Source of the DNA: Anoxybacter fermentans
GTDB lineage: Bacteria; Bacillota; Halanaerobiia; DY22613
Assembly: GCF_003991135.1 (NCBI RefSeq)
Contig: NZ_CP016379.1
Span: 3,410,001 to 3,474,000 of the forward strand
Direction: 5' to 3'
Length of the DNA stretch: 64,000 nt
In this document: positions 2,560 to 26,467 of the stretch, one piece after another
How positions within the stretch are numbered: position 1 is the stretch's first letter
How the letters are laid out: each line of letters starts with the position of its first letter
Made by a program: the position numbers and the translations under genes
The notes under the pieces: model-generated
What the model was told of the DNA's origin: nothing
Seen by the model: the letters and a program-made list of their open reading frames with translations, nothing else
The model's database searches: none

Positions 2560-4308
2560 ATGAGAAGGACTAAAATTGTTTGTACTATTGGACCTGCTAG
2601 TGAGAGTAAAGAAGTTTTAAAGGAATTGATAAAAGCTGGTATGAATGTTGCCCGTTTGAATTTTTCTCATGGTAGTCATGAAGAACACGGAAGAAGAATT
2701 AAAAGAATCCGTGAGGCTGCTAAGGAGTTGGGTGTTAATGTTGCAATTATGCTGGATACCAAAGGTCCGGAGATTCGGAGCGGTATCCTGAAAGAAGATA
2801 AGGTAGAACTTGTAAAAGGACAGAAGTTGATTCTTACTACTGAGGAGATTGAAGGAGATGCTAATCGGGTTAGTGTAAGTTATAAGAATCTGCCTAATGA
2901 TCTTTATGAAGGAGCACGAATTCTGGTTGATGATGGATTGATTGAGCTTAAAGTTGAGAAGATCTACGAAAATGAGATCCATACTGTTGTTATTAATGGA
3001 GGAATTTTAGGTTCCCGTAAAAGTATTAATCTGCCGGGAGTTAAGATAAATCTGCCTGCTTTAACTCAAAAGGATATTGATGATCTTAAGTTTGGAATTG
3101 AACAGGGTGTAGATTTTATTGCAGCATCTTTTGTGCGTAAAGCTGCAGATGTTTTAGAAATTCGCCGTATTTTAGAGGAAGCAGGAGCTGATATTCATAT
3201 TATTTCTAAAATTGAAAATGCTGAAGGTGTAGAAAATATTGATGAAATCATTAAAGTATCTGATGGAATTATGGTTGCCAGAGGAGATCTGGGGGTTGAA
3301 ATTCCTGCTGAACAGGTACCAATTGTTCAGAAGATGATTATTCGTAAGTGTAATAAAGCAGGTAAACCGGTTATTACTGCTACTCAGATGCTGGATTCCA
3401 TGATCCGTAATCCGCGTCCGACACGTGCAGAAGCCAGTGACGTAGCTAATGCAATTTTTGACGGTACAGATGCTACAATGCTTTCTGGTGAAACTGCTGC
3501 TGGTTCTTATCCTGTTGAGGCAGTTAAAATGATGGCACGAATTGCTGAACGGACTGAGTCTTCTCTCAGTTTCGAGGAAATTCTTGCTAATTTTGATACT
3601 CCTGAAGCAACTACTACTGATGCCATCAGTTATGCTACCTGTAATATTGCATTAGACTTAGGTGCTGCTGCTATAATAACTTCTACCCGTTCCGGTTATA
3701 CTGCACGGGCGGTTTCCAAATATAGACCTAAGTCACCTATTATTGCAGCTACTCCGAATGAATCAGTTTTGCGTAAATTATTACTTGCTTTTGGAGTTTA
3801 TCCGATTCTTGTTCCGGAAACATCTACAACTGATGAAATGATTGAAGTTTCTGTAAATGGAGCTTTAGAACAGGGATTAATTAACGAGGGTGACCTTGTG
3901 GTTATCACTGCTGGTACTCCAGTAGGTGTACCGGGAACTACTAATTTATTAAAAGTACATGTTGCAGGAAAAGTATTGGTACGCGGTACCGGTATTGGTA
4001 AAACAGCAAAAACTGGGCGTGTGGTTATTGCCAATAATGCCAAGGAAGCTATTGAAAAGGTGAAAGAAGGAGATATTCTGGTTGCTTATGAAACAGATCG
4101 GGAATGGATGCCTGCTATTGAGAAGGTAGTGGCAATTATTACCGAACGGGGCGGTCTGACTTCCCATGCGGCTATTGTGGGTCTTAATCTAGGAATTCCA
4201 GTAATTGTCGGTGCAGAAGATGCAATGTCAATTCTTGAAGATGAGATGGTTGTAACGGTAGATTGTATTCGCGGCCAGGTCTATAGAGGTAAAGCAACAG
4301 TTTTATAA
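2560..4308 (+). CDS. pyk: Pyruvate kinase with C-terminal PEP-utilizer domain
   Basis: Converts phosphoenolpyruvate and ADP to pyruvate and ATP. The 582-aa protein has the TIM-barrel catalytic core (LNFSHG near residue 35, [10 protein letters not shown] near 70, [12 protein letters not shown] near 240, TATQMLDSM near 270), the alpha/beta allosteric domain, and an extra C-terminal phosphohistidine-type domain ending in [11 protein letters not shown]. That extra domain is typical of Bacillales and Clostridia pyruvate kinases. Upstream GTG codons are open in frame from 2539, but the GGTGGGAG ribosome site at 2541-2548 points to ATG at 2560. It is followed by a clear intrinsic terminator that closes the acc-pfk-pyk cluster. 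Confidence 0.96.
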
Positions 4309-4319
4309 TCTTCAGTTCT

Positions 4320-4360
4320 GCCCTTTCTGTAAGTAATTGCAGAAAGGGCTATTTTATTTT
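4320..4360 (+). terminator. Intrinsic terminator after pyk
   Basis: Perfect 10-bp inverted repeat GCCCTTTCTG / CAGAAAGGGC (4320-4329 and 4340-4349) with a 10-base loop, followed by TATTTTATTTT. It lies 12 bases after the pyk stop. Confidence 0.9.
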
Positions 4361-4425
4361 AATTCTATTTAACCGTTCCATAGCATAAAATAAAAGAAGG
4401 TGGATTAGCGAAAGGGGGCATTTTT

Positions 4426-4890
4426 GTGTTTATACGCTTGTTATTAATCTTTTCGATTATTCCACTGATAGAATTGGCTTTGTTAATAAAGGTAGGTGGT
4501 TATCTTGGAATTATACCTACCATTATTTTAGTAGCAGGTACTGGTGTGGTTGGGGTATCTCTGGCCCGTTCTCAGGGGTTTCAATTAATTCAGGAGTTAA
4601 AATTAACTCTTAAAAGAGGGGAGCTACCAGCAGATCACCTTATTCAAGGGTTATTAATCTTGATAGGAGCAGCTATGCTTCTTACCCCAGGTTTACTGAC
4701 TGATACTGTTGGATTTCTTTTGATTATCCCACCAACTCGTCGTTTCACTGCCAGTTATGTTAGAAGAAAAATACGTAAATGGATTGAAAAGGGTAAGCTC
4801 CATATCAGTTATGATGAATATCGGAATCCTTATGGAACCGATGATTATAATTATGAGGATTCAATTGATGTCGATTTTGAGGAAAAATAA
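4426..4890 (+). CDS. fxsA: FxsA family membrane protein
   Basis: A 154-aa protein of the FxsA (suppressor of F exclusion of phage T7) family. The N-terminal two thirds contain three to four hydrophobic segments, with the family's LIELALLIKVGGYLG start and LLTPGLLTDTVGFLLIIPP in the third segment. A charged cytoplasmic tail rich in Asp, Tyr and Glu follows. The role outside phage exclusion is unknown for the family. Start is GTG at 4426, supported by AAAGGGGGC at 4411-4419; there is no good ATG. It stands alone between the pyk terminator and a palindromic repeat, so it is probably monocistronic. Confidence 0.88.
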   Translation: MFIRLLLIFSIIPLIELALLIKVGGYLGIIPTIILVAGTGVVGVSLARSQGFQLIQELKLTLKRGELPADHLIQGLLILIGAAMLLTPGLLTDTVGFLLIIPPTRRFTASYVRRKIRKWIEKGKLHISYDEYRNPYGTDDYNYEDSIDVDFEEK

Positions 4891-4893
4891 AAA

Positions 4894-5060
4894 GATTAAA
4901 CTGCAAAAATTTAATTTTGAATGACATAGAAATTTTTCGTTAAACCATCTTAGTGAGATTTCAGTCGAAATCAGGCCTCATCACGGGATGTGATGGGGCC
5001 TGATTTCGATTGAAATTGAACTTTAGATGGTTCGAAAAATTTCTTCTGACATAAAAAAAG
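4894..5060. repeat. Palindromic interspersed repeat, copy A (right end truncated)
   Basis: Copy of the window-wide element. It begins GATTAAACTGC and continues through the inner stem (CATCTTAGTGAGATTTCAG with its complement at 5000-5035). The final AAAATTAGCTTTTTGCAGT arm is lost just before the 5064-5453 gene, leaving only traces. It separates fxsA from the convergent gene downstream. Confidence 0.85.
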
Positions 5061-5063
5061 AAA

Positions 5064-5453
5064 TTAAGCACTCAAAGTACGGATTTCTTTGGGAGAGAGT
5101 TTTCGTAAGATGAATTCAAATCCACAGGTTTCTATTGAGACATTTTTACGGAGAAAATGTGCATCCATTGTGTCAAATCCCAGCTTAAAGGGGATATTTA
5201 AACAATCTACCACTTGACCGTTTTCAGTATGGCTTCCTTTAATAACAATTGAACCAAGCTTTTCTTTGCGCTTTAATCCCAGACGGCGACAAAGGCCTTT
5301 ATCTTCTAAAGGTCGGATTTGTAAATCTTTGACCTGAACTGAAAAATTGGAGAGGATTAGGCCATCTTTTTTTACCTGGATTTGAATCCATTTGCCTTTA
5401 TATAAATGATGAAGCTGATCAAAAATCTCATCAAAAGTTTTTGTGATTTTCAT
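5064..5453 (-). CDS. Hypothetical protein, 129 aa
   Basis: I do not recognise this protein. It is soluble, mixed alpha/beta in appearance, with no signal peptide, membrane segment or cysteine cluster beyond three scattered Cys. The frame is open to 5489. However, on the minus strand AGGAG is followed by TGATGCAT and then ATG at 5453, which gives ideal spacing, so I place the start there (MKITKTFDEIFDQ). The remote possibility of a small beta-barrel (PilZ-like) fold cannot be tested by eye. It is monocistronic, convergent with fxsA, and flanked on both sides by copies of the palindromic repeat. Confidence 0.7.
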   Translation of the reverse strand: MKITKTFDEIFDQLHHLYKGKWIQIQVKKDGLILSNFSVQVKDLQIRPLEDKGLCRRLGLKRKEKLGSIVIKGSHTENGQVVDCLNIPFKLGFDTMDAHFLRKNVSIETCGFEFILRKLSPKEIRTLSA

Positions 5454-5571
5454 ATGCATCACTCCTGTTATAAAAATATGTCCTGACACATATCAGTATT
5501 ACCCCAAATAGTTTTATCTAAACATTGAATCCAAAAAAATTTTGTTCATTGTTTAATTTTTTTAATGTGAT

Positions 5572-5791
5572 GGTTAAACTGCAAAAAGCTAATTTTCGCT
5601 TCTTGAAAAATTTTTCGAACCATCTAAAGCTTGGTTTCCACCGAAATAAGGTTTCCTAATCAAAGGGCCCTTCTGGCCTTTGATTAGCTCATCACCTCCT
5701 GTGATGAGGCCTTATTTTATCGGAAATCTCGCTAAGATGGTTTGGCGAAAAATTTCTATGTCGCTCAAAATTAGCTTTTTGCAGTATAATT
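5572..5791. repeat. Palindromic interspersed repeat, copy B
   Basis: Full-length copy (about 220 bp) from GGTTAAACTGCAAAAAGC to GCTTTTTGCAGTATAATT. The outer arms pair over most of their length. The centre holds two small hairpins, TCAAAGGGCCC..GGCCTTTGA and CTCATCACCTCCTGTGATGAG. It occupies most of the 445-bp gap between two divergent genes. Confidence 0.9.
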
Positions 5792-5897
5792 TTATTGTTA
5801 TAAAAATGTCGATTAAATTTCTATAATAATGCAGGAACCCAAAAAATTATATTTAATATATTTAATAGTACTTACAGGAAAAATGGAGGGTTAGATT

Positions 5898-7004
5898 ATG
5901 GAAAGGAATATACTGAAAATAGATTTGGCAGATGATGCAGATGTAAGTAATCTTTCAAAAATAAAAACCTTATTGTATCATCATTTACAGCATAAACCCA
6001 GTCCTCCGCTGATTGGAAAACTATATTTGAACCAGGGCCTGGTTTATTGCAAAATTAAAAATTACCCTCTAGCTCATGAAGCCTGGGAAAAAGCCGCCAG
6101 TTATTTTAAAGATTTCAGTGATCCCTTTAATCTTGCATTAACCTATTATTATCAAGGACTCCTTTTTTCAGAAGAAGAGGAGGTAGTTAAGGCTCTTGAA
6201 AAATGGAATCAGGTGTTGGTACTTTTATCTGATGACCAGGAAGAGAAGGCTCTGCTCAAATGTCAAACTCTTTATCAGATTGGTAAAACTTTGCTGGAGA
6301 TTGGTGAGCTGGAGCGGGCAAATGAATATTTAAAAAAAGGGGCCAGAATCGCAAAACAGGGGAAGTATATCTATGAGGAGGCATTGATAACCCAGGAACT
6401 GGCCCGGGTTTGGGTTAAGATGGGAGAATGGAATAGGGCTTTGCAATTATATTATAAAACTATTGCTAAGTGGAAAGAATTAAAGGAAGAACGGCGGATT
6501 GGGATGGTATTAGATGATCTGGGTTATTTATATTGCCAGCTGGGAGATGTTAAAAAAGCGATTAATGCTTTTAAATATAGTTTACGGATACAAAAAAAAT
6601 ATCAGGATGAAGATTTGTCTCAAACTTTACTTCAACTGGGAAGGTTATATCTAAGGATTGATCCAGAGAAAACTAAATATTATTGTCAGGAGATTATTAA
6701 AATTCTTTTAGAGGAATTGGGTTATCGATTTACAGAAGCCCAGGAAAAACAACTTGCCCATGTTTTTTTTCTGATGGGATTGTATTGTCGGGAGAAAAGT
6801 GATAGAAAGAATATGCTTATGTTTTTAAAGCAAAGTCTTTCTATTTATAAAAAATTCCACATGGAAGCTCAATGGTATGAAGTATATAAAATTTATAAAA
6901 AATATGCTCAGTCAAAGATAGAAGAAAGATTTAACGAAGCAAAGGAACTGGTGAATCAATTGGTCCATCATGAAAAACTTCGTTTACATAAATTTATTGG
7001 TTAA
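5898..7004 (+). CDS. TPR-repeat protein
   Basis: A 368-aa cytoplasmic protein made almost entirely of tetratricopeptide-type helical hairpins (for example residues 40-75, 85-120, 125-160, 170-200 and 205-240), with repeated A-x-x-x-Y and G-x-L-Y features such as LDDLGYLYCQLGDVKKAINAF. There is no signal peptide, no catalytic domain and no N-terminal HTH, so it is not a Rap/PlcR-type regulator that I can prove. It may be a scaffold for protein-protein contact. Start ATG 5898 follows a GGAGGG ribosome site with good spacing. It is isolated between palindromic repeats B and C, so the context gives no functional hint. Confidence 0.8.
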   Translation: MERNILKIDLADDADVSNLSKIKTLLYHHLQHKPSPPLIGKLYLNQGLVYCKIKNYPLAHEAWEKAASYFKDFSDPFNLALTYYYQGLLFSEEEEVVKALEKWNQVLVLLSDDQEEKALLKCQTLYQIGKTLLEIGELERANEYLKKGARIAKQGKYIYEEALITQELARVWVKMGEWNRALQLYYKTIAKWKELKEERRIGMVLDDLGYLYCQLGDVKKAINAFKYSLRIQKKYQDEDLSQTLLQLGRLYLRIDPEKTKYYCQEIIKILLEELGYRFTEAQEKQLAHVFFLMGLYCREKSDRKNMLMFLKQSLSIYKKFHMEAQWYEVYKIYKKYAQSKIEERFNEAKELVNQLVHHEKLRLHKFIG

Positions 7005-7009
7005 TATAT

Positions 7010-7139
7010 GATTATACTGCACAAAGCTAATTTTGAGCGGTATAGAAATTTTTCGCTAAACTATCTTAAGTGAGATCGAACTTTAGATGGTTCGAAAAAT
7101 TTCTTCTGAAGCGAAAAATTAGCTTTGTGCAGTAAAATA
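7010..7139. repeat. Palindromic interspersed repeat, copy C (short form)
   Basis: A 130-bp version. The outer arms (ACTGCACAAAGCTAATTTT ... AAAATTAGCTTTGTGC) and the second stem are kept, but the two apical hairpins are deleted. The arm variant GCACAAAGC/GCTTTGTGC and the right flank AAAATAAGATTA are shared with copy E near 22.5 kb, so C and E form a subfamily. Confidence 0.85.
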
Positions 7140-7212
7140 AGATTACATGTCCGGAGGGCATTTTGAGCTTGTTGACAAACCTTTCTTTTTTAAAGATTTG
7201 CCTGTGCACTGC

Positions 7213-7349
7213 CAGAAAAACTAAATATAATTTCTGAAGCGTATAAGTCAAGGCTTAAAGCCAGGAGGGCAGAAGCCTTGACTTTTAAGGACGCGTAGCC
7301 AGGATGGCGGAGCGTCCGGTAGCGGAGAAAATTATATTTAGTTTTTCTG
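7213..7349. repeat. Large cloverleaf-like inverted repeat of a different sequence family
   Basis: The outer stem is a perfect 21-bp inverted repeat (7213-7233 with 7329-7349). Inside lie two further perfect hairpins: AAGTCAAGGCTT/AAGCCTTGACTT (7245-7256 with 7273-7284) and GGACGC/GCGTCC (7289-7294 with 7312-7317). The plan of an outer stem plus two inner hairpins matches that of the abundant palindromic repeat, but the sequence differs. It is flanked at about 7145-7160 and 7402-7418 by two near-identical GGGCATTTTG hairpins. No credible reading frame crosses it, and it fills the 420-bp gap between the TPR gene and sspH. Confidence 0.75.
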
Positions 7350-7424
7350 TTCCTCTGTGGGAGTAAGTTATGTGCACCTCTTCTTTTTCAACAGCCTGAC
7401 ATGCCCGAAGGGCATTTTGTTTTA

Positions 7425-7607
7425 TTATCCCTCTTCCACCAACTGATCAACCGGAACTTCAATGATGTTGTTTGATGTAGCAGGCATTTTTACCTGTGCT
7501 GTATTTTTGCTAGCATTTAAATTGGTAATCCAGACCTTTGTTCCTTTGTAAGTAACATCAATTGTTTCAGGGGAATTTAAAATCTCCTGTGCTCTTTCAA
7601 ACTTCAT
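7425..7607 (-). CDS. sspH: H-type small acid-soluble spore protein
   Basis: A 60-aa protein matching the SspH family along its whole length. It starts MKFERAQEILNSPE, has the central VTYKGTKVWI and ends VPVDQLVEEG. H-type SASPs are minor proteins made in the forespore during sporulation. The presence of the gene indicates that the organism descends from, or still belongs to, an endospore-forming lineage. On the minus strand an AAAGGAGATG ribosome site precedes ATG. It is monocistronic; no sigma-G promoter could be assigned with confidence. The family match is clear despite the small size. Confidence 0.9.
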   Translation of the reverse strand: MKFERAQEILNSPETIDVTYKGTKVWITNLNASKNTAQVKMPATSNNIIEVPVDQLVEEG

Positions 7608-7751
7608 TTATTTACATCTCCTTTCTATCTTTATATTTAGTTTGTCTTAATTTAGAAAAAAAATTCACTCCTAATATTTACCATCTATTTTTGCAAGGTA
7701 AAACTGTCCTCTTTGGTGAATTTATAAGCAGGGTAGAAAGGAGGGGTTACA

Positions 7752-8645
7752 ATGCGTGAAATATTAATTAGTTTACTTATGGTAATAGTATTGGCGTTAA
7801 CTGGTCCTGTAGAGAAGGTTATAGGATCAATTGAGGTAAAGGTTAATGATATTAACCAGGTTCAGGGAGAAGTTTTAATGGTTCAGGTATCTGGTGAAAC
7901 CTCTCCACCTTATGGGACATTTCTAGGAAGAGAATTAAATTTTCAGTCTTATCAAGATGGATGGATTGCTCTTATCGGAATCTCTTACTGGACTGAACCT
8001 GGAACATATCCTTTATGGATTAAATTATCTAATGGTAAGGAGATTGAACAGTCAATCCGGGTTCATAAAGGGGATTTTAAAGAAAGCCATTTGACCATTT
8101 CAAAAGAAAAAGCAAAATTAGTCAACCCGTCTTTTAAAGATAAGGCTATAATTGAGCGGAAAGCTAGAGATAGGGAACGGATAAAAGAAGCCTATAATCA
8201 GAGTGAGCCTTTCCCTTTGTGGAATGGGCCATTTATTCGGCCAGCGGAGGGACGGATTACTACAGGTTATGGTTATACAAGATATGTAAATGGTAAGTTA
8301 AGTAATCGTCATTCGGGTTTGGATATAGCTAATGCTGTTGGAACTCCTATATATGCTGTCAATGATGGAATTGTCCGGCTTGCAGAAGAGTTATTGGTTA
8401 CCGGGAATACAATTATAATTGATCATGGAGCGGGTTTATATTCCAGTTATAGTCATCTTAGTGAACTGTTAGTTGAAGAAGGTGAGATGGTGAAAAAAGG
8501 ACAAATTATCGGTAAAATGGGCAGTACAGGGTTTTCTACCGGTAGTCATCTCCATTGGGTAATGAAAATTGGTGATGTTTATTTAAATCCGGAGCAATTT
8601 GTAGGGACAGATCTTTTTCAGGAGCTAGATTTTGTTATTCCGTAA
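7752..8645 (+). CDS. M23 family metallopeptidase (LytM/peptidoglycan endopeptidase type), secreted
   Basis: A 297-aa protein with an N-terminal hydrophobic signal segment (residues 1-20), an Ig-like or linker region (25-110), a charged helical stretch (115-150) and a C-terminal LytM/M23 domain. The zinc ligands are visible as HSGLD (His187, Asp191) and HLHW (His266, His268), so the enzyme should be catalytically competent. It is expected to cut peptidoglycan cross-bridges outside the cytoplasmic membrane, in cell-wall remodelling, sporulation or germination. An AAAGGAGGGG ribosome site supports ATG 7752. It is divergent from sspH, with palindromic repeat D directly downstream. Confidence 0.9.
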   Translation: MREILISLLMVIVLALTGPVEKVIGSIEVKVNDINQVQGEVLMVQVSGETSPPYGTFLGRELNFQSYQDGWIALIGISYWTEPGTYPLWIKLSNGKEIEQSIRVHKGDFKESHLTISKEKAKLVNPSFKDKAIIERKARDRERIKEAYNQSEPFPLWNGPFIRPAEGRITTGYGYTRYVNGKLSNRHSGLDIANAVGTPIYAVNDGIVRLAEELLVTGNTIIIDHGAGLYSSYSHLSELLVEEGEMVKKGQIIGKMGSTGFSTGSHLHWVMKIGDVYLNPEQFVGTDLFQELDFVIP

Positions 8646-8684
8646 CCTGATATATTGATGAAGAGCAGTTATAATTTAATGTAT

Positions 8685-8906
8685 GATTTTACTGCAAAAA
8701 ACTAATTTTGAGTACCATAGAAATTTTTCGTTTAACCATATTAGTGAGATTTCAGTCGAAATAAGGCCTCATATGAGGATGTGATGAGCTAATCAAGGGC
8801 CAGGAGGGCCCATTGATTAGTGTGTCTTATTTCGACTGAAATCGAACTTTAGATGGTTCGAAAAATTTCTTTTGAAGCGAAAAATTAGCTTTTTGCAGTT
8901 TAATCA
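8685..8906. repeat. Palindromic interspersed repeat, copy D
   Basis: Full-length copy (222 bp), GATTTTACTGCAAAAAACTA to GCTTTTTGCAGTTTAATC, in the opposite orientation to copy B. ATGTAT occurs on both sides, directly at the left boundary and directly after the right boundary, as expected for a 6-7 bp target duplication. Confidence 0.9.
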
Positions 8907-8930
8907 TGTATTAAAAGTAAGGATTGAAAG

Positions 8931-8965
8931 CAGTTTCCATATGGAAGCTGCATTTTTATTTTTTT
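8931..8965 (+). terminator. Intrinsic terminator upstream of the aminopeptidase gene
   Basis: Hairpin GCAGTTTCC(atat)GGAAGCTGC followed by ATTTTTATTTTTTTC. It lies after repeat D and may end transcription from the M23 gene before the next promoter. Positions are accurate to a base or two. Confidence 0.75.
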
Positions 8966-8986
8966 CATTAAAATGTCATTTTTATA

Positions 8987-9015
8987 TTGACAAGTATCTA
9001 AATGAATGATAAAAT
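8987..9015 (+). promoter_or_regulatory. Sigma-A type promoter for the ArsR-M28 fusion gene
   Basis: TTGACA (8987-8992), 17-bp spacer, TAAAAT (9010-9015), about 85 bases before the start codon. Confidence 0.65.
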
Positions 9016-9097
9016 TTAATTAGATAATTATATAAATAAATTATTCGAGTCAGTTTGATGTGAGCAGGATGTAAATTTACTCAAGAGGGGTGGTTTG

Positions 9098-11671
9098 ATG
9101 GAATTGAAAAAACTTGAGGATATCTTTAAGGTTTTGGGTAATGAATCGAGGCTTAAAATTCTTAGCCTTTTGTTAAAGAAAAATTATTGTGGTGAAGAGC
9201 TGGCGCAGATGTTAAATCTTTCATCTGCGACTATATCCCATCATATGAAAAAGTTAGAGGATGCGGGATTGGTGATAGCCAGAAAAGAGCAGTATTATAC
9301 TTATTACTTTGTAAATGATCAGATTCTATCGGAACTTAACTTATCTGAGGTTCTTAAGACTCAAGGCTTAAGGGATGAAGAGGTAGATAAATGGCATTCT
9401 GAATATCAGCAAAAGATTATTAAAGATTTTTTTGATTCACAGGGGAAGTTGAAGTCTATCCCAAGCCAACGTAAAAAAAGGGAAGTTATTTTACAGAAAA
9501 TTGTCGAAGCTTTTGAGCCTAACCGGAGGTATTCAGAACAGGAAGTTAATTTGATACTGGCCCGATTCCATGATGATTTTTGTACTTTAAGGCGGGAACT
9601 TATCGGGTATAAATTGATGGAGCGGAAAGATGGTCATTACTGGAGAGTAATAACTGAAATAAATAGGTCAAAAGAAGAGTTTACTTTAGAAGATTTAATT
9701 CGTGTGATGAAGGCTGAAAGAGATAAGTTGAAGCCTGATGAAAAGGTTAAAAAAATTGCTTCTTATCATCGAATTCAGAATTCTCCGGGTATTGATGCTG
9801 CTATTAATGAGATGGCCAATGAACTTTCAAAATATGGAATAACCACCCAAATTAAGTGTTTTAAATCAGATGATCGAACCTTTTACCAAGACTATCTGGC
9901 CCCTGGTGGCTGGCTTGCTCATAAAGGGCAGTTACGTTTAAAAGAAACCGGTGAAGTTCTGGCTGATTATGAAATAAATCCGATTCAACTGATTCAGCGT
10001 AGTTGTTCAACCGATGGTAAAGAAGAGTTGGAAGTTTATGTAGTTGATGATCTAGAGCAGGTACTTAAAGAGAAACCTGATTTAACCGGTAAGATTCTTC
10101 TTACAGATCAGAATGTGCATAAGATTAAAGATCTGGTTCATGATCCACTAGGAGCCAGGGGAATTATTTTTGATGGAATGCGTCCGGTGCCTGGGCGTAA
10201 CTTAGAAGAGATGAAAGATGCACGTCAATATACATCTTTCTGGTGGAGTGGAGATGAAAAACGTACTTTTGGATTTGTTATCTCTCCTGCACTTGGTAAA
10301 AGGTTGAGAGACCAGATTAGAGCAGGAAAGCAGGTTAAAGTAGAATGTGAGGTTGAGGCTCAGTTTTTAGATCAACCTTTAAAAGTACTCCATGCGCGGA
10401 TCCCTGGTAAAACTGATGAAAACCTGCTTATGGTTGCACATATTTGTCATCCGTATCCTTCCGTAAATGATAATGCTTCAGGTGCAGGAGCAGCAGTAGA
10501 AGTAATGCAGTTTTTGAATAGAATGATTCAGGAGAAAAAGATTCCCAGGCCGGATCGGGGAATTGAGTTATTGTTAGTACCTGAGTTTAGTGGTACCTTT
10601 GCCTTTCTGGATCATTACTTAGAGACCGGTAATTATCTGGCTGGAATTAACCTGGATATGGTAGGAGAAAACCAGGATAAATGTGGTAGTACGCTCCAGG
10701 TAGTAGCTCCACCTATAAGTTTGCCAGGACTAACTGGAGATTTACTATACTATATTTTAAAACAGGTAACAGATGAAGATAAAATTCGTTTGAAAAAAGT
10801 TCCTTTTATGGGTGGCAGTGACCATGCAATTCTTTCAGATCCTACAGTTGGAATTCCATGTCCTATGTTAATTCAGCAGCCTGATAGGTATTACCATACA
10901 GATCAAGATACTCTGGATAAGCTTGATCCGATAATTTTAAAAGATGTTACTGTTGCGACAGCAATTTACCTCTACTATTTGGCTAATGCTCATCTGGCTG
11001 AGGTTCAAGAGATTATGGAAATTTATAAACAGGGCTTTCTTGAAATGGTTAAATCCCAGATTGAAGAAGTGCTTCAGCGGGCCCAGGAAGAAAATTTACC
11101 CAACAATGTTTTTGCTTACTGTAACCGTTGGGTTATTAAAATTTCAGATTGCTATATTCAGGCTATAGATTATTTTAAAAAATATATTAAGGCTGACGAG
11201 TTTAATTATTTCCAGAAACTTAATGCAGAATGGCAGAAAAGTTATCAGGTTGAACGGAGTAAGTTAATGAAAGAGATGAACAAAGCTTTAAGGGAATTGG
11301 TTAAAGTCAAACCTGAGTTGGCGAAGAACATGTGCCAGCGTAATTTAAGTCAACTAGAGCGGAAGTTGACTCAATTGGTTCCAGAACGTAAGTACTGGGG
11401 ATTTAGTACATTGACTCAGAAGCGCCATTTAGTAGAAAAGAAGCGATTAATTGATCTCTGGCGGATAATAGAGAAAGATAACTTAGATATTCCTGTTCTG
11501 GCACAGTATTGGGCAGATGGTCAACGAAATCTCTTTGAAATTATGGAGTTAGTGGAGCTAGAGACAGGACAGCGTGAAGTAGAATTTATTTACGATTTCT
11601 TTAGATTTTTAAAAGATGTAGGTTCTATTGAACTTCATGAACGGAGAAAAAATAGAAGGTTAGATAGCTAG
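9098..11671 (+). CDS. ArsR-type HTH / DUF2087 / M28-like aminopeptidase (DUF4910) fusion protein
   Basis: An 857-aa fusion. Residues 1-90 form an ArsR-family winged helix (NESRLKILSLLL, LSSATISHHMKKLEDAGLV). Residues about 125-190 resemble DUF2087, normally attached to such regulators. Residues about 215-645 are an M28/DUF4910-type zinc aminopeptidase, with metal ligands visible as VAHICHP (His448) followed by VNDNASG, LLLVPEFSG, MVGEN and GGSDHA (His576). Residues 645-857 are an alpha-helical tail with another winged-helix look. A DNA-binding regulator joined to a complete peptidase is unusual and suggests a peptide-responsive regulator or an intracellular peptidase controlling its own gene. 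ATG 9098 is favoured by AAGAGGGGTGG; a TTG lies just before it. It is monocistronic with its own promoter and terminator. Confidence 0.8.
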   Translation: MELKKLEDIFKVLGNESRLKILSLLLKKNYCGEELAQMLNLSSATISHHMKKLEDAGLVIARKEQYYTYYFVNDQILSELNLSEVLKTQGLRDEEVDKWHSEYQQKIIKDFFDSQGKLKSIPSQRKKREVILQKIVEAFEPNRRYSEQEVNLILARFHDDFCTLRRELIGYKLMERKDGHYWRVITEINRSKEEFTLEDLIRVMKAERDKLKPDEKVKKIASYHRIQNSPGIDAAINEMANELSKYGITTQIKCFKSDDRTFYQDYLAPGGWLAHKGQLRLKETGEVLADYEINPIQLIQRSCSTDGKEELEVYVVDDLEQVLKEKPDLTGKILLTDQNVHKIKDLVHDPLGARGIIFDGMRPVPGRNLEEMKDARQYTSFWWSGDEKRTFGFVISPALGKRLRDQIRAGKQVKVECEVEAQFLDQPLKVLHARIPGKTDENLLMVAHICHPYPSVNDNASGAGAAVEVMQFLNRMIQEKKIPRPDRGIELLLVPEFSGTFAFLDHYLETGNYLAGINLDMVGENQDKCGSTLQVVAPPISLPGLTGDLLYYILKQVTDEDKIRLKKVPFMGGSDHAILSDPTVGIPCPMLIQQPDRYYHTDQDTLDKLDPIILKDVTVATAIYLYYLANAHLAEVQEIMEIYKQGFLEMVKSQIEEVLQRAQEENLPNNVFAYCNRWVIKISDCYIQAIDYFKKYIKADEFNYFQKLNAEWQKSYQVERSKLMKEMNKALRELVKVKPELAKNMCQRNLSQLERKLTQLVPERKYWGFSTLTQKRHLVEKKRLIDLWRIIEKDNLDIPVLAQYWADGQRNLFEIMELVELETGQREVEFIYDFFRFLKDVGSIELHERRKNRRLDS

Positions 11672-11697
11672 AAGAATTTTCTTCTAGCGTTTTTTTA
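11667..11697 (+). terminator. Intrinsic terminator after the ArsR-M28 gene
   Basis: Perfect 8-bp stem GCTAGAAG/CTTCTAGC (11667-11674, 11681-11688) followed by GTTTTTTTAT; the stem begins in the stop codon region. Confidence 0.9.
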
Positions 11698-11774
11698 TAT
11701 TCAAGATGAAAAGAAATTAACTTATAGAACTTATTTTTACCCAGATAAATCTATGTTCTCAAAAAAAGTGCAAC

Positions 11775-11804
11775 TTGACACAAAATGAAACAGTTTGTTA
11801 TAAT
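11775..11804 (+). promoter_or_regulatory. Sigma-A promoter of prdR
   Basis: TTGACA (11775-11780), 18-bp spacer, TATAAT (11799-11804). It lies about 130 bases upstream of the prdR ATG, indicating that the activator has its own housekeeping promoter and a leader of about 120 nt. Confidence 0.75.
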
Positions 11805-11931
11805 AAATTGAAAAATTAAACATAGATTTAATAAAGATGTATCTATTTTTTGTTCTAAAAGTTAAATGGGGATGGAATAATGATAGAGGAACTAAATGTC
11901 ATTCTATGTTAAAGCCTAAGGGGTTGGTTAA

Positions 11932-13689
11932 ATGTTATCTGGTCAATTAAATAATAGTGTCAAAGATATTATGAATACTGATGTATTGACGGTAACTGCT
12001 GATACCATTTTGAGAGATTGTATAAAATTGATGCTTATAAATAATAAAGGTGAAATACTTGTAATTGATGAAAAAAGACATTTAAAAGGGCTTTTGACAT
12101 TTACTGATGTTGCCAGGATTATGAAGGAGGAAAAAAATGGATTTGATAAAAGTGTTAAATATTATATGCGAAAAGATATTTTAACCATTGGGCCTAATGA
12201 AAAGGCTATCAAAGCCAAGAATATAATGAAAAATCGGGGAATTGGGAGACTTCCTGTTGTTAAAAATAAAAAATTAATTGGTATTATCAGAATTATTGAT
12301 ATTTTGGATAAAATTTATAGTAGGATTGAGGAAGAAAGTGCTAGTCTTGCTTTAATTTTAAACAACTTACATGAAGCAGTATGTGTGGTAAATACAGAAG
12401 GAATTGTAGTGTTATGGAGTAAAAAATCGGAAAAACTTTATGGCGTCAAAGCTGAGCAGATTGTAGGAAATAAACTAGAAGATTTTTTCCCAAATGCTCT
12501 TTTACTCAAAGTTCTCAAGGACAAAAAACCTATAGAAAATATTTATCATAGTCCCAGGGAAGGAAGTTATGTGATAATTAGTGCTATCCCCTTATTTATA
12601 AATGGAGAATTTGTGGGAGCTGTATCTACTGATAGAGATGTAACAGAAGTGACAAATTTAACTCTTGAATTAGAAAAAACAAAGGACAAGTTAGAATTAT
12701 TACAGGAAGAGGTAAATAAAATTAATGAAGATAAATATTCCTTTGGCATTATACTTGGTAAAAGCAAAGTGATAAAAGAAAAAATAGCCAGGGCCAGAAG
12801 AGTTGCACGAACTAATAGTAGTGTTTTAATTACTGGAGAGAGTGGAACTGGAAAGGAAGTATTTGCTAGAGCAATTCATCAGGCAAGTGGAAGAAAAGGA
12901 CCTTTTGTAGCTGTAAATTGTAGTGCAATTCCTGAAAACTTATTTGAGAGTGAAATGTTTGGATATGTAGGAGGAGCTTTTACTGGAGCTTTAAAAAAAG
13001 GTAAAGTAGGAAAGTTTGAATTAGCTAATGGAGGTACTTTATTTTTAGATGAAATTGGAGATATGCCTATGTATATGCAGGTGAAACTCCTCCGGGTACT
13101 TCAGGAAAAAAAGATTGTACGAGTGGGAAGTGAGAAAGATATTGATGTCGATGTAAGAATTATTTCTGCAACACATCGTGATTTAAGAGCTATGGTAAAG
13201 GAAAATCTTTTTAGAGAGGACCTTTATTATAGGCTTAATGTGGTAAGTATTGAATTACCTGCTTTAAGAGAAAGAAAAGAAGATATTCCCATTCTGTTAA
13301 GACATTTCATTTGTGAATTTTGTAAAGAAAATAATATATCTGTTCCTAAACTTAAGCCCGAAGTGTTAGCGGTGCTTATGAGTTATAGTTGGAAAGGAAA
13401 TATAAGAGAATTGAAAAATACAGCAGAACATCTGGTTGTATTTTCAAAAAATGGTGAAATAAGATTGGATAGTGTGCCTGAATATATACTTGAGCAGACA
13501 ATTGGGGAAGATGATAGAGAACCAGTTTTTGATTTGCAAAAAGCAGTTGAAAGGACAGAAAAAGAGATAATAAGAAAAGTTATGAAAATGGTGGAAGGTA
13601 ATAAAAGTAAAGCAGCAAAATTGCTTAATATACCTAGAAGTACTTTATATTACAAATTAAAATATTATAATATGAAGGATTTATTGTAA
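11932..13689 (+). CDS. prdR: Sigma-54-dependent activator of proline reductase genes, PrdR
   Basis: A 585-aa enhancer-binding protein. Two CBS domains (residues about 8-130) probably sense a nucleotide or metabolite. A PAS domain (140-245) follows. The AAA+ sigma-54 interaction domain (270-495) has Walker A GESGTGKE near 302, the sigma-54-contacting GAFTGA motif near 348, and FLDEIGDM. The C-terminus is a Fis-type HTH ([20 protein letters not shown]). This architecture and the position directly before prdC match PrdR of Clostridioides difficile, which activates the prd operon with proline. A consensus sigma-54 promoter lies in front of the next gene. Start ATG 11932 follows AAGGGGTTGG. Function is assigned with high confidence from motifs and neighbours. 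Confidence 0.92.
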
Positions 13690-13727
13690 ATTTACTGATA
13701 CTATATTTTTTATTTATTTAATTTCAG

Positions 13728-13776
13728 TGTCAGTGTAATGACAAAGTGTCATTATGCTGACATTTTATTTTTTTTA
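13728..13776 (+). terminator. Strong hairpin after prdR (terminator and possibly PrdR site)
   Basis: 16-nt arms TGTCAGTGTAATGACA / TGTCATTATGCTGACA (13728-13743, 13747-13762; two mismatched positions, loop AAG), followed by TTTTATTTTTTTTATCC. This is a good intrinsic terminator for prdR. The TGTCA/TGACA half-sites are also like those of the palindrome at 13856, so the DNA could double as an activator site. Confidence 0.75.
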
Positions 13777-13855
13777 TCCAAATATAAGCGCTAATTATTG
13801 AAATAACAAGAATTTTGAGAATATATGTTTATAAATAGATATTATAAATGCTAAA

Positions 13856-13879
13856 TTAGTGTCAGTACATTAACACTAA
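13856..13879 (+). promoter_or_regulatory. Candidate upstream activating sequence for PrdR
   Basis: Inverted repeat TTAGTGT (13856-13862) ... ACACTAA (13873-13879), 10 bases apart, centred about 145 bp upstream of the sigma-54 promoter. Such a dyad at this distance is typical of enhancer-binding-protein sites. Assignment to PrdR is inference from position. Confidence 0.5.
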
Positions 13880-14003
13880 ATAATATTTGCTTATTTTTTA
13901 TCTGTTAAACAGATATATTATAAAAAAATTATGATGTTTATCAACTTTAGGATATCAACAATTTTTGAAGCAAAATCAAATTTTAATCATTTAAAATATT
14001 AAG

Positions 14004-14020
14004 TTGGCACACTCCTTGCA
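14004..14020 (+). promoter_or_regulatory. Sigma-54 promoter of the prd operon
   Basis: TTGGCACACTCCTTGCA matches the sigma-54 consensus TTGGCAC-N5-TTGCA exactly, with -24 GG and -12 GC dinucleotides correctly spaced. It lies 43 bases before the prdC start. Together with the adjacent PrdR gene it gives a complete activator-promoter pair. Confidence 0.93.
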
Positions 14021-14062
14021 AATAAATTTAAGTGAAAGGTTTTTAGGCAAGGAGGTGAACAA

Positions 14063-15349
14063 ATGGAAATTAAAATTCTGTTAAAGCAACATGTAGGTGT
14101 CCCTTGTAAGCCAATAGTTGCAGTAGGTGATGAGGTTAAAAAGGGGCAGTTGATTGCAGAACCTCAAGGGTTGGGGGCTAATATACATTCCAGTGTTTAT
14201 GGATTAATTACTGAGGTAAGTGAAAATTTTATCAAAGTAAAACCTCATGAAAATCAGCCCGATGAATATGTAAAGTTAAAAGAAAGTGATAATAAATTAG
14301 AACTTATCAAAGAAGCAGGTATTGTAGGAGCAGGTGGGGCTGGATTTCCGACTCATGTGAAATTAGATGTAAATTTGCAGGGTGGGTATGTAATAGCAAA
14401 TGGAGCTGAATGTGAACCTTTGTTGGCACATAATTTAAAGTTAATGGAAGAACACCCTGAGATTATAGTAAGAGGATTAAAGTATATAAAAGAGATTACA
14501 AATGCTTCTAAGGGTTATATTGCAGTAAAAGAAAAATATAAAAAAGCTGTTAAGGCTCTAAAAAAAGCATGTTCATTAGAAAAGGATATTGAACTAAAGC
14601 TTTTACCTGACATGTATCCTGCAGGAGATGAAAGGGTTATTGTCCGGGAGATTTTAGGAGTTGAATTGAAACCTGGACAATTGCCTTTAGAGGCTAATGC
14701 TGTGGTTCAAAATGTAGAAACTTTAAAGCATATTGTTAATGCCATTGAAAAAAGAAAGCCCTTTATAACAAAAGATTTGACTGTTGCAGGAAGAGTTAAA
14801 GATGCAAGAAATGGTAAGGTATTTTTTGATGTACCAATTGGTGAGCCTGTAGGAAAGTATATCAATCTCTGTGGAGGGTATATTGAACCCCATGGAGAGA
14901 TTGTGTTGGGTGGACCTTTTACAGGAAAATCTGGAACTGAACAAACACCAGTTACTAAAACTCTTGGTGGAATTTTAGTTGCGATGCCGTTCCCTCAGGA
15001 AACAAGAAAGATGGGACTTTTGGTTTGTGAGTGTGGAGCCTCTGAAGAGCGACTTAGAGAAATCGCTGAATCTATGGGTTCTGAAGTAGTTGCGGTGGAA
15101 AAATGTAAAAGAATGGTTGAGGTAAATGGAAGATTTAGGTGTGAAAAGCCTGGAGTATGTCCGGGTCAGGCTGAAAAAGTTCTTGCTTTGAAAAATAAAG
15201 GGATAGAGGTTCTTTTGGTCAGTACCTGTGGTGACTGAACTAATACAGTTATGAATATCGCTCCTCGTGTAGGAGTGCCAGTTTATCATTGTACAGATCA
15301 TGTGCTTAGAGCTGCAGGTATGAGACTTGTAAGAAGGCTTAATAAATAA
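14063..15349 (+). CDS. prdC: Proline reductase-associated electron transfer selenoprotein PrdC
   Basis: An RnfC-like protein thought to deliver electrons to D-proline reductase. The frame is open for 391 codons to TGA at 15236-15238, where the context CGD-UGA-TNTVMN matches the selenocysteine site of PrdC. Beyond it the same frame continues for 37 codons (APRVGVPVYHCTDHVLRAAG...) to TAA 15347-15349. I therefore read UGA as Sec392, total 428 aa. RnfC-like features include GIVGAGGAGFPTHVKL near residue 90, GAECEPLLAHN and GGPFTGKSG. The AAGGAGGTG ribosome site is strong. It is the first gene behind the sigma-54 promoter. Reading the UGA as a stop would cut off the redox-active end. Confidence 0.92.
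15236..15280 (+). promoter_or_regulatory. Selenocysteine UGA and candidate SECIS hairpin in prdC
   Basis: UGA at 15236-15238 is followed 22 bases later by hairpin CTCCT(cgtgt)AGGAG (15261-15275). Bacterial SECIS elements lie just downstream of the Sec codon with a small apical loop. The exact SelB-binding loop cannot be verified by eye. Confidence 0.6.
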
Positions 15350-15385
15350 ATTATCAGCTTTATATAAAATAGGGAGGGAAGATAA

Positions 15386-17272
15386 ATGTCTATTACTCCA
15401 GAAACAGCACAACAGCATAAAAATGATCCAGCTATTTTATGCTGTAGAACAGAAGCAGGAACAATTATTGAACCTGCTAACCTGGAGGATCCTGCAATTA
15501 TTCCAGATTTAGAGGATTCCGGATTGCTGAAAGTTCCTGAAAACTGCTTAAAAATTGGACAGGTTTTAGGTGCTAAATTGGTTAAAACTGTTGATTCTTT
15601 AACTCCATTAACTCCAGACTTGCTGGAAGGAGTTAAAGATATTAAAGAAGAGAAAATAGAAGAAAAAGCTGTAGCAGAAGAAGTAGTAGAAAATGATGTT
15701 AATAAAGAGGCAGCACCAGTTATACAGACCACAGGCGGTATGGTCAAAATTTATATTGGTGAAGGTAAAAATATCAATCTTGAGTTTCCACTTGGACTGG
15801 TTGGTGGTAATATTCAGACTCCAGAATTTAGGACTTCAAAAGTTGAGCCAGTTCAGAGTGCAGAGCCTATAAAAGTTGAAGAAAAACCAAAAGAAGAACC
15901 AAAAGTAGTAAGAAAGCTTGTTAAAAAGTATTTCAAAATTGATAAAGTAGAGTTTGGTCCAGAAACAAAAATTGATGGAACTACCCTTTATATCAGAGAA
16001 GATATTTGTGACGATGCTGTGAAAGCTGACGAATTAGTTTGTTCAATTAAAGTAGATATTATTACCCCAGAAGATTATGGCAAATATAGTGAAACCATTA
16101 TGGATGTTCAACCAATTGCTACCAAAGAAGGAGACAGCAAACTTGGTAGTGGTGTTACCAGAGTAATTGATGGTGTAGTAATAGTAGTTACTGGAACTGA
16201 TGAAAATGGAGTCCAGATTGGTGAATTTGGTTCTTCTGAGGGTATTCTTGAAAGAAATATTATGTGGGGTAGACCAGGTGCACCAGATAAAGGTGAAATT
16301 TTCATTAAGACTGAGGTAGTTATCAAAGAAAATACAAATATGGAAAGGCCAGGACCTCTAGCTGCTCATAAAGCTACCGACTATATCACTCAAGAAATCA
16401 GAGAAGCTTTAAAGAAAGCTGATGAGAGCCTGGTTGTGAAAGAAGAAGAGTTTGTTCAATATAGAAGACCTGGTAGAAAGAGAGTAGTAATAATTAAAGA
16501 AATTATGGGCCAGGGTGCTATGCATGATAATATTATTCTGCCTGTAGAGCCAGTAGGAATTGTCGGTGGTAAGCCAAATGTTGACCTTGGTAATATACCT
16601 GTAGTCTTGTCACCATTGGAAGTATTGGATGGTGGAATTCATGCTCTAACATGTATTGGTCCTGCATCCAAAGAAACTTCTAGACATTACTGGAGAGAAC
16701 CTCTTGTACTTGAAGTTATGAATGATCCAGAATTGGATCTTGTAGGAGTTATCTTTGTTGGTTCACCTCAGGCTAATTTAGAGAAATTCTATGTATCTGA
16801 AAGATTAGGTATGTTGGTTGAAGCATTGGATGTAGATGGAGCTTTCATTACTACTGAGGGTTTTGGAAACAACCATATAGATTTTGCAAGTCACCATGAA
16901 CAGGTAGGTAAAAGAGGCGTAGCTGTTGTAGGTATGTCTTTCTGCGCTGAACAAGGTGCACTGGTTGTTGGTAATAAATATATGAAGAATATGATTGATT
17001 TGAACAAATCAGAGCAAGGTATTGAAAATGAAATTCTGGCGAACAACACATTATGTCCAGAAGATGCAATTAGAGCTGTTGCAATGTTAAAAGCAGTTAT
17101 GGCTGGAGAAGAAATTAAGGCTCCAGAAAGAAAGTATAATCCAAATGTTAAAATGAACAACATTGATCTAATTGAAAGCCAAACTGGTAGAAAAATTGAT
17201 CTGGTACCAAATGAGCAGATATTGCCAAAGAGCAAGAAAAGAAGAGAAATTTATGAACCTGAAGATGAATAA
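15386..17272 (+). CDS. prdA: D-proline reductase proprotein PrdA
   Basis: Proprotein of D-proline reductase, which reductively opens D-proline to 5-aminovalerate in Stickland fermentation. The 628-aa precursor is cleaved before a cysteine that becomes the pyruvoyl cofactor. The candidate site is ALTCIGPASKET with Cys423, giving an N-terminal alpha chain and a C-terminal catalytic beta chain. The sequence VKIYIGEGKNINLEFPLGLVGG (about residues 119-140) and an acidic/lysine-rich linker precede the core domain, which starts near residue 180. PrdD and PrdE downstream repeat its two halves as separate proteins. A GGGAGGG ribosome site precedes ATG 15386. Glycine-rich GFGNNHIDFASHH near 490 is conserved in the family. 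Confidence 0.94.
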   Translation: MSITPETAQQHKNDPAILCCRTEAGTIIEPANLEDPAIIPDLEDSGLLKVPENCLKIGQVLGAKLVKTVDSLTPLTPDLLEGVKDIKEEKIEEKAVAEEVVENDVNKEAAPVIQTTGGMVKIYIGEGKNINLEFPLGLVGGNIQTPEFRTSKVEPVQSAEPIKVEEKPKEEPKVVRKLVKKYFKIDKVEFGPETKIDGTTLYIREDICDDAVKADELVCSIKVDIITPEDYGKYSETIMDVQPIATKEGDSKLGSGVTRVIDGVVIVVTGTDENGVQIGEFGSSEGILERNIMWGRPGAPDKGEIFIKTEVVIKENTNMERPGPLAAHKATDYITQEIREALKKADESLVVKEEEFVQYRRPGRKRVVIIKEIMGQGAMHDNIILPVEPVGIVGGKPNVDLGNIPVVLSPLEVLDGGIHALTCIGPASKETSRHYWREPLVLEVMNDPELDLVGVIFVGSPQANLEKFYVSERLGMLVEALDVDGAFITTEGFGNNHIDFASHHEQVGKRGVAVVGMSFCAEQGALVVGNKYMKNMIDLNKSEQGIENEILANNTLCPEDAIRAVAMLKAVMAGEEIKAPERKYNPNVKMNNIDLIESQTGRKIDLVPNEQILPKSKKRREIYEPEDE

Positions 17273-17287
17273 GAAAAAGGTGATTTA

Positions 17288-17551
17288 ATGAAATATGGTG
17301 ACAAAATTATAGATATGCGAGGCATAGTGGTAGAGGTCCATGAAGGTTCCATTTCCATTGATTTAAAAGGAAGATTAGGATTTTTAAAAGTTCCTCTGCG
17401 GATGGTCATATCTGATCACCCGATTAAGGTGGGCCAGGAAGTCGGATTTAAGATGAGTTTTATTGAAGTGTTGGGACCTGAGATCAATGAACACTATGTG
17501 AGCAATATTGAAAAACGAAATAGGAAAATGAAAAAGAAGGAGGATGAATAA
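17288..17551 (+). CDS. Small proline reductase cluster protein (CBO2463/CBO2479-type)
   Basis: An 87-aa soluble protein lying between prdA and prdB, a position held by a conserved small protein in other prd operons. The N-terminal 65 residues look like a small beta-barrel (IVVEVHEGSISIDLKGRLGFLKVPLRM) and the C-terminus is a Lys/Glu-rich tail. Its biochemical role is unknown to me. The stop overlaps the prdB start by one base (17551), showing tight coupling with the catalytic selenoprotein. Start ATG 17288 has the weak site AAAAGGTG. Confidence 0.8.
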   Translation: MKYGDKIIDMRGIVVEVHEGSISIDLKGRLGFLKVPLRMVISDHPIKVGQEVGFKMSFIEVLGPEINEHYVSNIEKRNRKMKKKEDE

Positions 17552-18279
17552 TGGCAGATTTAACAGTAGTTAAAGGTCTTCAGTCTGAGATTTATGTGCC
17601 TATAACTCCCCCGCCGGTTTGGGCTCCAGTTACAAAAGAGCTTAAAGATATGACCGTGGCACTGGTTACTGCAGCTGGTGTTCATTTAAAGTCTGATAAA
17701 AGGTTTAATCTTGCTGGTGATTTCACTTTCAGAAAAATTCCTGGGGATGTGTCATCCAGTGAGCTGATGGTGTCTCACGGTGGTTATGATAATGCTGATG
17801 TAAATAAAGATATAAACTGTATGTTCCCAATTGATCGACTCAGAGAATTAGCTGAGGAAGGATTCATTAAAAGTATAGCATCCACCCATATTGGTTTTAT
17901 GGGCGGAGGTGGTGATCAGCAAAAATTCAAAGAAGAGACTGGTCCTGAAATTGCTAGAATCTTAAAAGAGGAAGGTGTAGATGCAGTTATACTGACTGCT
18001 GGCTGAGGTACTTGCCACCGCTCTGCCGTGATTGTGCAGAGAGCGATTGAGGAAGTTGGTATTCCTACTATCATTATTGCTGCTTTGCCTCCAGTAGTTA
18101 GACAGAATGGTGCTCCAAGAGCAGTTGCTCCAATGGTACCAATGGGTGCAAATGCAGGTGAACCAAACAATCCTGAAATGCAAAGAGGGATTGTCAAGGA
18201 TGCATTAAAACAATTAGTAGAAATTGAGTCTCCTGGCAAAATTGTGCCATTACCTTATGAATATAATGCAAAAGTTTAG
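17551..18279 (+). CDS. prdB: D-proline reductase selenoprotein subunit PrdB
   Basis: Selenocysteine-containing catalytic subunit of D-proline reductase. The frame runs 151 codons to TGA 18004-18006 in the context LTAG-U-GTCHRSAV, i.e. a U-x-x-C redox motif, and continues in frame to TAG at 18277-18279, giving 242 aa with Sec152. That is the normal PrdB length. The start is ATG 17551 with AAGGAGGATG upstream. The fold is shared with glycine/betaine/sarcosine reductase B subunits (GGYDNADVNKDINCMFPIDRL). A naive gene caller would split it into two pieces at the UGA. Confidence 0.95.
18004..18048 (+). promoter_or_regulatory. Selenocysteine UGA and candidate SECIS hairpin in prdB
   Basis: UGA at 18004-18006 is followed after 12 bases by CGCTCTGC (18019-18026), a 9-base loop CGTGATTGT, then GCAGAGAGCG (18036-18045). 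This is a strong stem at the distance expected for a bacterial SECIS. Confidence 0.7.
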
Positions 18280-18334
18280 GTTGGTTTATCAAAATTGAGT
18301 CTACCTCTCCATTGAGGTAGACTCTAACCAACCT
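18278..18334 (+). promoter_or_regulatory. Two-tier intercistronic hairpin between prdB and prdD
   Basis: A perfect 11-bp stem GAGTCTACCTC/GAGGTAGACTC (18297-18307, 18314-18324) sits inside a perfect 9-bp outer stem AGGTTGGTT/AACCAACCT (18278-18286, 18326-18334). No U-tract follows, so it is not a clean terminator. It may stabilise or separate the prdCAB part of the transcript from prdDEF. Confidence 0.6.
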
Positions 18335-18354
18335 CATTAATTAGGTGGTGGACT

Positions 18355-19119: not shown

Positions 19120-19133
19120 AGGGGGGTGAATCC

Positions 19134-22445: not shown

Positions 22446-22483
22446 TGTTTAGGAAATTATACTTTTTCGCAGGTTTATAGATA

Positions 22484-26420: not shown

Positions 26421-26452
26421 AACCCCTATCCTTACAGGATGGGGGTTTTTTT
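26421..26452 (+). terminator. Intrinsic terminator after ileS
   Basis: AACCCCTATCC (ttaca) GGATGGGGGTT followed by T-rich sequence. Confidence 0.9.
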
Positions 26453-26467
26453 AAAATTAAATAAGAT

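Follow-up and report, generated by a model that had tools for sequence, protein, structure and literature searches.

What can a single polypeptide do that joins a DNA-binding domain to a peptidase fold? The question is raised by a gene of Anoxybacter fermentans, in the 64,000-nt stretch of DNA analyzed here (the window), which a sequence-only reading had described as an ArsR-type helix-turn-helix fused to DUF2087 and to a complete M28-like aminopeptidase, possibly a peptide-sensing regulator. The gene is one uninterrupted frame from an ATG at 9098 to a stop at 11671, and it is single copy in its 3.56-Mb single-contig genome, where four further matches cover the ArsR part only. The open frame and the Pfam domain search confirm that the three elements lie in one polypeptide (Table 1), and the N-terminal ArsR-type winged helix also scores above the cut-off for NF033788. 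The matches to HTH_5, DUF2087, Peptidase_M28, and DUF4910 all exceed the Pfam gathering scores, the last two covering residues 432–617 (Peptidase_M28, E = 7.9e-13, 49.0 bits against a cut-off of 21.3; DUF4910, PF16254, E = 1.6e-10, 40.7 bits against 26.6). All 20 members of the alignment of the peptidase-like module match the DUF4910 profile.

Table 1. Features of the fused gene and its promoter, in coordinates of the window.
Feature	Position	Strand	Basis
Sigma-70-type promoter of the fused gene, TTGACA-17-TAAAAT	8987..9015	+	Consensus scan, 11/12 matches
Candidate operator, AATTAGAT-AATT-ATATAAAT	9018..9037	none	Agrees with the ArsR-DUF2087 palindrome, AATTAGAT-N4-ATCTAATT, at 14/16 positions
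Fused gene, 857 aa	9098..11671	+	Open frame; ortholog of identical architecture
ArsR-type winged helix, residues 16–59	9143..9274	+	HTH_5, E = 2.6e-13
DUF2087, residues 117–183	9446..9646	+	Pfam, E = 1.8e-26
Fusion junction, residues 184–196	9647..9685	+	Stand-alone regulators stop and stand-alone peptidase-like proteins start about here
M28/DUF4910-like module, residues about 197–632	9686..10993	+	Pfam, model, structural matches
PA-like insert, residues about 265–430	9890-10387	+	Position and model; weak PA match in 4/20 members
HICHPYPSVND: H448, C450, H451, Y453, D458	10439..10471	+	H448, C450, H451, D458 in 49/49
P495-E496, replacing the M28 Glu-Glu pair	10580..10585	+	P in 48/49, E in 49/49
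D520, ligand position	10655..10657	+	49/49
H576 (SDH motif), conserved, outside the ligand positions	10823..10825	+	49/49; alignment with 3k9t
H600, aligned with H324, the last zinc ligand of 3k9t	10895..10897	+	Alignment with 3k9t; 49/49
Helical bundle, residues 633–745	10994..11332	+	Predicted structure
C-terminal winged-helix-like domain, residues 751–847	11348..11638	+	Superposition on 3k9t 348–434

The fusion is not a sequencing error, nor is it unique, because the second genome of the family (G001) has the same fusion in a syntenic position. Its ortholog has 853 aa, the same architecture, and 66% identity over residues 1–850, which puts the fusion in both of the two genomes available for this family. 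The N-terminal, peptidase-like, and C-terminal parts of the two proteins share 64%, 71%, and 58% identity, respectively, so none of them has decayed. Gene order is kept in both genomes, with different genes interspersed: TPR and M23 genes, in that order, precede the fusion, and after it come one gene encoding 143 residues and a long one, aligned over 1060 residues, that we read as IleRS. Upstream of this IleRS-like gene, a strongly conserved stretch at about 23047–23113 (AGGGTGGTACCGCG), which we take to be T-box-like, is common to G001. An Rfam search of positions 4000–20000 gave no match.

At 11932–17272, the window contains genes for a CBS-PAS-sigma54 activator, an RnfC/Complex1_51K protein, and a Gly_reductase-type protein, presumably resembling a proline-reductase (Prd) cluster. 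A link between this cluster and the fusion was rejected: G001 has the fusion but gives no match to the Gly_reductase/PrdA-like protein of the window at E ≤ 1e-20, in a search that had no separate positive control, and its fusion sits among other genes. A peptide-antibiotic context was also discarded, since the GNAT, two-component system, and FtsX-type/ABC transporter genes near the G001 fusion are absent beside that of the window.

The two halves of the protein are usually found apart. Among 59 genomes of the class, the fusion occurs in two, an unfused relative in five, and no match at E ≤ 1e-30 is found in the other 52. A sample of the phylum contains 31 matching genomes out of 398 (E ≤ 1e-40), and these comprise the fusion itself, 3 with the ArsR-DUF2087 part only, and 27 with the peptidase-like part only. 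The 19 relatives recovered by scanning the genome collection all lack the fusion and start at about query residue 180–217. Elsewhere in the Bacillota, and on some plasmids, the ArsR-DUF2087 unit is found by itself: with the whole fused protein as query, seven plasmid records match, all of them through this unit, and with the unit as query, 17 do. From the position of the junction, the fusion is best read as an end-to-end joining of two whole genes. The tree, built from 49 sequences (excluding L007, L088, and L092, which repeat L006, L013, and L021, and the truncated L105), nests the fused pair among unfused proteins; the stem of the pair is long, at 2.06 changes per column, and the fork that holds it is drawn open. 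By this placement, the fusion is derived. Among the 69 columns conserved in unfused proteins, 58 are kept in both fused proteins and 11 are lost. Given these losses and the long stem, the pocket of the fused clade may have changed in function.

If the fusion reflected a functional link visible elsewhere, one might expect its parts to be neighbors in other genomes. In the fetched flanks, a separate ArsR-DUF2087 gene beside unfused peptidase-like genes was not found at E ≤ 1e-3: among 44 loci with the peptidase-like module (three of which repeat others), only the G001 fusion itself gives such a match. An S66 (LD-carboxypeptidase-like) gene adjoins the unfused gene in four loci (L046, L047, L048, and L103), in three of which it is directly upstream and co-directional.

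Does the peptidase-like module hydrolyze peptides? The model of the whole protein has a mean pLDDT of 79, with values of about 85–97 through most of the peptidase-like part and mostly below 70 in the first 190 residues, where the alignment had no relatives. Its best structural match is 3k9t (Z = 30.7, rmsd 3.3, 370 residues), which is also the best PDB sequence match by profile (E = 7e-18). The next matches are 2ek8, the transferrin receptor, LapA, and the Vibrio aminopeptidase (Z of 28–30). The profile alignment places the zinc ligands H189, D195, and H324 of 3k9t on H451, D458, and H600 of the fused protein, and eight residues (H448, C450, H451, D458, E496, D520, H576, and H600) are invariant in the 49 homologs. 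The data fit a pocket in which all five metal-ligand positions are filled, by H451 (or H448), D458, E496, D520, and H600. By its strand position and spacing, on the GCPII numbering, H448 could instead be the M28-type first ligand. E496 aligns differently against different M28 chains in HMMER, and a role as ligand or as base is compatible with this. Of the ligands named in the sequence-only reading (His448, VNDN, and His576), D458 stands, H448 is possible by spacing, and H576 must be given up, as it is not at a ligand position in the alignment with 3k9t. The loss of zinc ligands among homologs, which would have spoken against that reading, is not observed, the candidate ligand residues being kept in 49 of 49.

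The catalytic residues tell a different story. The M28 catalytic Asp is absent from all 49 homologs: position 450 is Cys throughout, and position 453 is never Asp (Q in 19, K in 18, Y in 5, R in 5, and E in 2). The M28 Glu-Glu pair is Pro-Glu in 48 homologs and Ala-Glu in one. Because the canonical M28 Asp and Glu are missing across the family, a canonical aminopeptidase is not supported, and neither is the proposed hydrolysis of peptides by a complete enzyme; nor was anything found that identifies a peptide signal. Conservation supports instead a putative ligand-binding metal pocket. To judge from its residues, the DUF4910 module is thus a conserved metal pocket and not a canonical aminopeptidase.

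The last 200 residues had been taken for a second winged helix. This appears correct for residues 751–847, which superpose on residues 348–434 of 3k9t (Z = 8.1, rmsd 1.6 Å, 70 residues). It does not hold for the ~110 residues before them: structure prediction, which bears out the M28 fold and a C-terminal winged-helix-like domain, gives a helical bundle at 633–745. This bundle occupies the place of the helical domain of the transferrin receptor and GCPII, and taken alone it resembles many bundles. The counterpart in 3k9t is a circularly permuted winged helix that makes trimer contacts (PMC4000134), so that the C-terminal winged helix of the fused protein need not bind DNA. The C-terminal part is also present in unfused proteins. 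HTH_47 of Pfam matches it only weakly, in two of 19 members and with an E no better than 0.11, Foldseek gave no match to it at E ≤ 0.001, and a PDB profile search returned nothing significant.

DNA binding is better approached from the promoter. Taken alone, the promoter match is weak, since 12 such sites turned up over the region scanned where 11.7 were expected; the G001 ortholog, though, is preceded by the same arrangement. The candidate operator lies directly after the −10 box (9010–9015), a position that fits a repressor, and only 3 of 1000 shuffles are as good; in the window, its score of 14/16 is reached by 2 of 636 other 200-bp windows. A site upstream of the ortholog scores 13/16, a level that 17 of 1000 shuffles attain, and a weaker copy, 12/16 as counted by eye, occupies the position equivalent to 9018–9037. 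Conservation of the promoter between the two genomes was considered as evidence of autoregulation and is weakened by the finding that three of five syntenic upstream regions are equally conserved.

The palindrome originates in TCTAATTAGA, found upstream of stand-alone ArsR-DUF2087 genes, near the start, on three Bacillales plasmids and then lengthened with further loci to its present form; a short motif, ATTAGATAAWTAT, was dropped in its favor. It scores at least 12/16 in the 200-bp regions upstream of 20 of 24 stand-alone ArsR-DUF2087 genes, a count in which some of the scored loci had served to draw the consensus by eye and several are congeneric, hence not independent events. In 18 of these 20 regions, at most 2 of 300 shuffles are as good, and in the control, 9 of 672 further 200-bp windows, taken from 23 of the loci, attain 12/16. 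Eleven minus-strand loci had entered the drawing of the consensus in the wrong orientation; read correctly, nine of these score 12 or more. Four genes miss this score, namely L113 (Deinococcus) and L118–L120. The latter three lie directly behind an upstream gene, and farther upstream of them the best palindrome sites score 13, 11, and 12 of 16. L118–L120 are also the closest stand-alone relatives of the regulator, and the gene in front of them is conserved, of ~123–138 aa, and of no recognized function. The operator-like palindrome in its own promoter thus supports the regulatory half of the original description, that of a DNA-binding regulator, and the hydrolytic half is not supported; binding of the fused protein to this site and control of its own promoter are predicted from the sequence.

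As to the signal, ArsR/SmtB metal sensors carry clustered Cys/His metal-sensing residues. Metal sensing of this type is unlikely in residues 1–190, as these hold only two Cys, C31 and C162.

A search for other targets gives 13 sites with at most two mismatches to the palindrome in the genome, the own promoter included, against 3 for a reversed-pattern control. Of the other 12, eleven were viewed with their flanks and the last within the window. Most are inside genes, two precede a frame, at distances of 129 and 160 bp, and one duplicates the own promoter; among these 12 there is no convincing second target and hence no sign of a wider regulon. The duplicate arises from the segment 8915–9037 (a terminator-like hairpin, the promoter, and the operator), found again around the site at 1689807–1689826 of the genome, where it adjoins another copy of a ~235-bp repeat and precedes a small frame that looks decayed. 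This imperfect palindromic, MITE-like repeat also stands directly upstream of the promoter of the fused gene (8675–8915). The window has eight further long copies at 81–88% identity (5560–5790, 22481–22697, 26451–26686, 35072–35313, 37775–38025, 44622–44858, 53373–53606, and 56966–57189), and 40 copies genome-wide, out of 611 first-look candidates, scored 94–100% over 126 bp. Elsewhere in the window, at 54947–54966, the palindrome AATTAGTTAACAAACTAATT, perfect except at its center and matching the operator at 14 of 16 positions, precedes a frame of 273 aa at 55106 by ~140 bp.

These observations suggest to us, with doubt and confidence about evenly balanced, an autorepressor that works in the manner of a "trigger enzyme" and is released from its operator by a ligand of the DUF4910 pocket. 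The N-terminal ArsR-DUF2087 unit would bind the palindrome at its own transcription start and repress its own gene, and the DUF4910 module (M28 fold, metal pocket, PA-like lid, helical bundle, and C-terminal winged helix) would bind an amide-like ligand, such as one of peptide or aminoacyl type. A filled pocket would be signaled to the N-terminal unit and lift repression, with more protein made while the ligand is present. As the genome offered no convincing second target, the module itself would be the output, through chemistry by a non-canonical active site (one without the classical Asp/Glu pair) or through capture of the ligand.

The module might instead be a dead enzyme that only binds its ligand, the protein being a pure sensor that controls other genes through sites not recognized here. 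Regulators built on enzyme folds do exist, such as ROK and MocR, and the loss of the canonical Asp in every homolog, with Glu replaced by Pro in all but the one that has Ala, agrees with this. However, the metal pocket is equally conserved in unfused proteins, which have no regulator, and the other genomic sites are mostly intragenic or, in one case, a copy of the own promoter. If the own gene is the sole target, a substrate-induced enzyme or binding protein is favored over a sensor of this kind, which we regard as unlikely. An active aminopeptidase of M28 type, destroying a peptide signal and binding DNA as a second activity, would account for the fold (Z of 28–30 to several aminopeptidases), for the five apparently filled ligand positions, and for the peptidase genes beside some unfused relatives (S66 in the four loci above, M20 in some). 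It is nevertheless improbable, because the canonical Asp is absent at the catalytic position and Pro-Glu stands for Glu-Glu, replacements that led the authors of the 3k9t structure to doubt its peptidase activity (PMC4000134).

Trimer contacts by the C-terminal winged helix of 3k9t (PMC4000134) and the failed gel shifts of the DUF2087 protein BtmL, for which an mRNA leader was suggested as target (PMC7113386), would suit a protein that is no transcription regulator, with winged helices for protein contacts or RNA binding and a promoter site there by coincidence. The strong ArsR match and the recurrence of the palindrome in the family's own upstream regions both oppose this, and we give it little credence. 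An enzyme that helps to make surface sugars, the role proposed for CA_C2195, would share the DUF4910 fold, and 3k9t is the best structural match; yet no sugar-modification or sugar-biosynthesis genes were recognized near the fused gene, near its ortholog, or among the recurrent neighbors of unfused relatives, which makes this highly improbable. The autorepressing enzyme-like protein is therefore the reading that we retain.

In its most complete form, which is tentative and in our view somewhat more probably wrong than right, this would be a substrate-induced circuit in one polypeptide, made of an ArsR-DUF2087 autorepressor and a non-canonical metal amidase (HxCHP ... PE in place of HxD ... EE), with a family-wide ArsR-DUF2087 operator making targets predictable. 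In the literature searched, whose coverage leaves out most subscription journals, no report of the ArsR-DUF2087/DUF4910 fusion or of its operator was found, nor anything bringing DUF2087, an operator, and ArsR together; a helix-turn-helix and DUF4910 are treated jointly in the 3k9t paper alone. The same literature gave no known reaction for DUF4910, although a structure has been solved since 2009 (3k9t), and no agreed operator or ligand for DUF2087 regulators. If the substrate of the module does release the repressor, a reporter of the fused-gene promoter would become a ligand assay for an orphan enzyme family, and with the candidate operator, DUF2087 regulators of many Bacillota could be tested directly.

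Compared with known systems, the N-terminal unit is closest to the stand-alone ArsR-DUF2087 regulators, which have the same two domains, 33–44% identity over residues 1–187 (20 loci), and the same upstream palindrome, but have about 180–210 aa and lack the enzyme-like module. The sole DUF2087 protein with functional work found in the literature searched is BtmL of the bottromycin cluster, which has an ArsR-like N-terminus; its gel shifts with the region tested were negative, and its mechanism was left open (PMC7113386), which calls for caution in any claim of DNA binding by DUF2087 proteins. CA_C2195 (3k9t; DUF4910 with a DUF2172 insert and HTH_47) resembles the rest of the protein in its M28 fold, its PA-derived insert, by superposition its permuted C-terminal winged helix, and the replacement of the catalytic Asp and Glu, there by Ser191 and Pro225 (PMC4000134). 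The fused protein has no Pfam match to DUF2172 (one relative matches weakly, at E = 0.19), and its insert is PA-like by position and model. In contrast to 3k9t, the fused protein starts with ArsR-DUF2087 and has a helical bundle ahead of the winged helix, and its family appears to fill all five ligand positions where 3k9t keeps three. The order of M28 fold, PA-like domain, and helical domain is that of the transferrin receptor and GCPII ectodomains, eukaryotic cell-surface proteins with 13–16% identity over 406–474 aligned residues in most rows; the transferrin receptor illustrates that an M28 scaffold can lose catalysis (PMC4000134). E. coli PepA, an M17 aminopeptidase that represses carAB as a trigger enzyme, independently of catalysis, is likewise a peptidase-type protein that represses transcription, but it belongs to another peptidase family, has no helix-turn-helix, represses another operon, and wraps DNA instead of binding a small operator (PMC6245113). 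The fused protein is likened to trigger enzymes by its presumed mode of working, not assigned as a member, and by this analogy the fusion would belong, as a kind, to the autoregulating enzyme-regulators.
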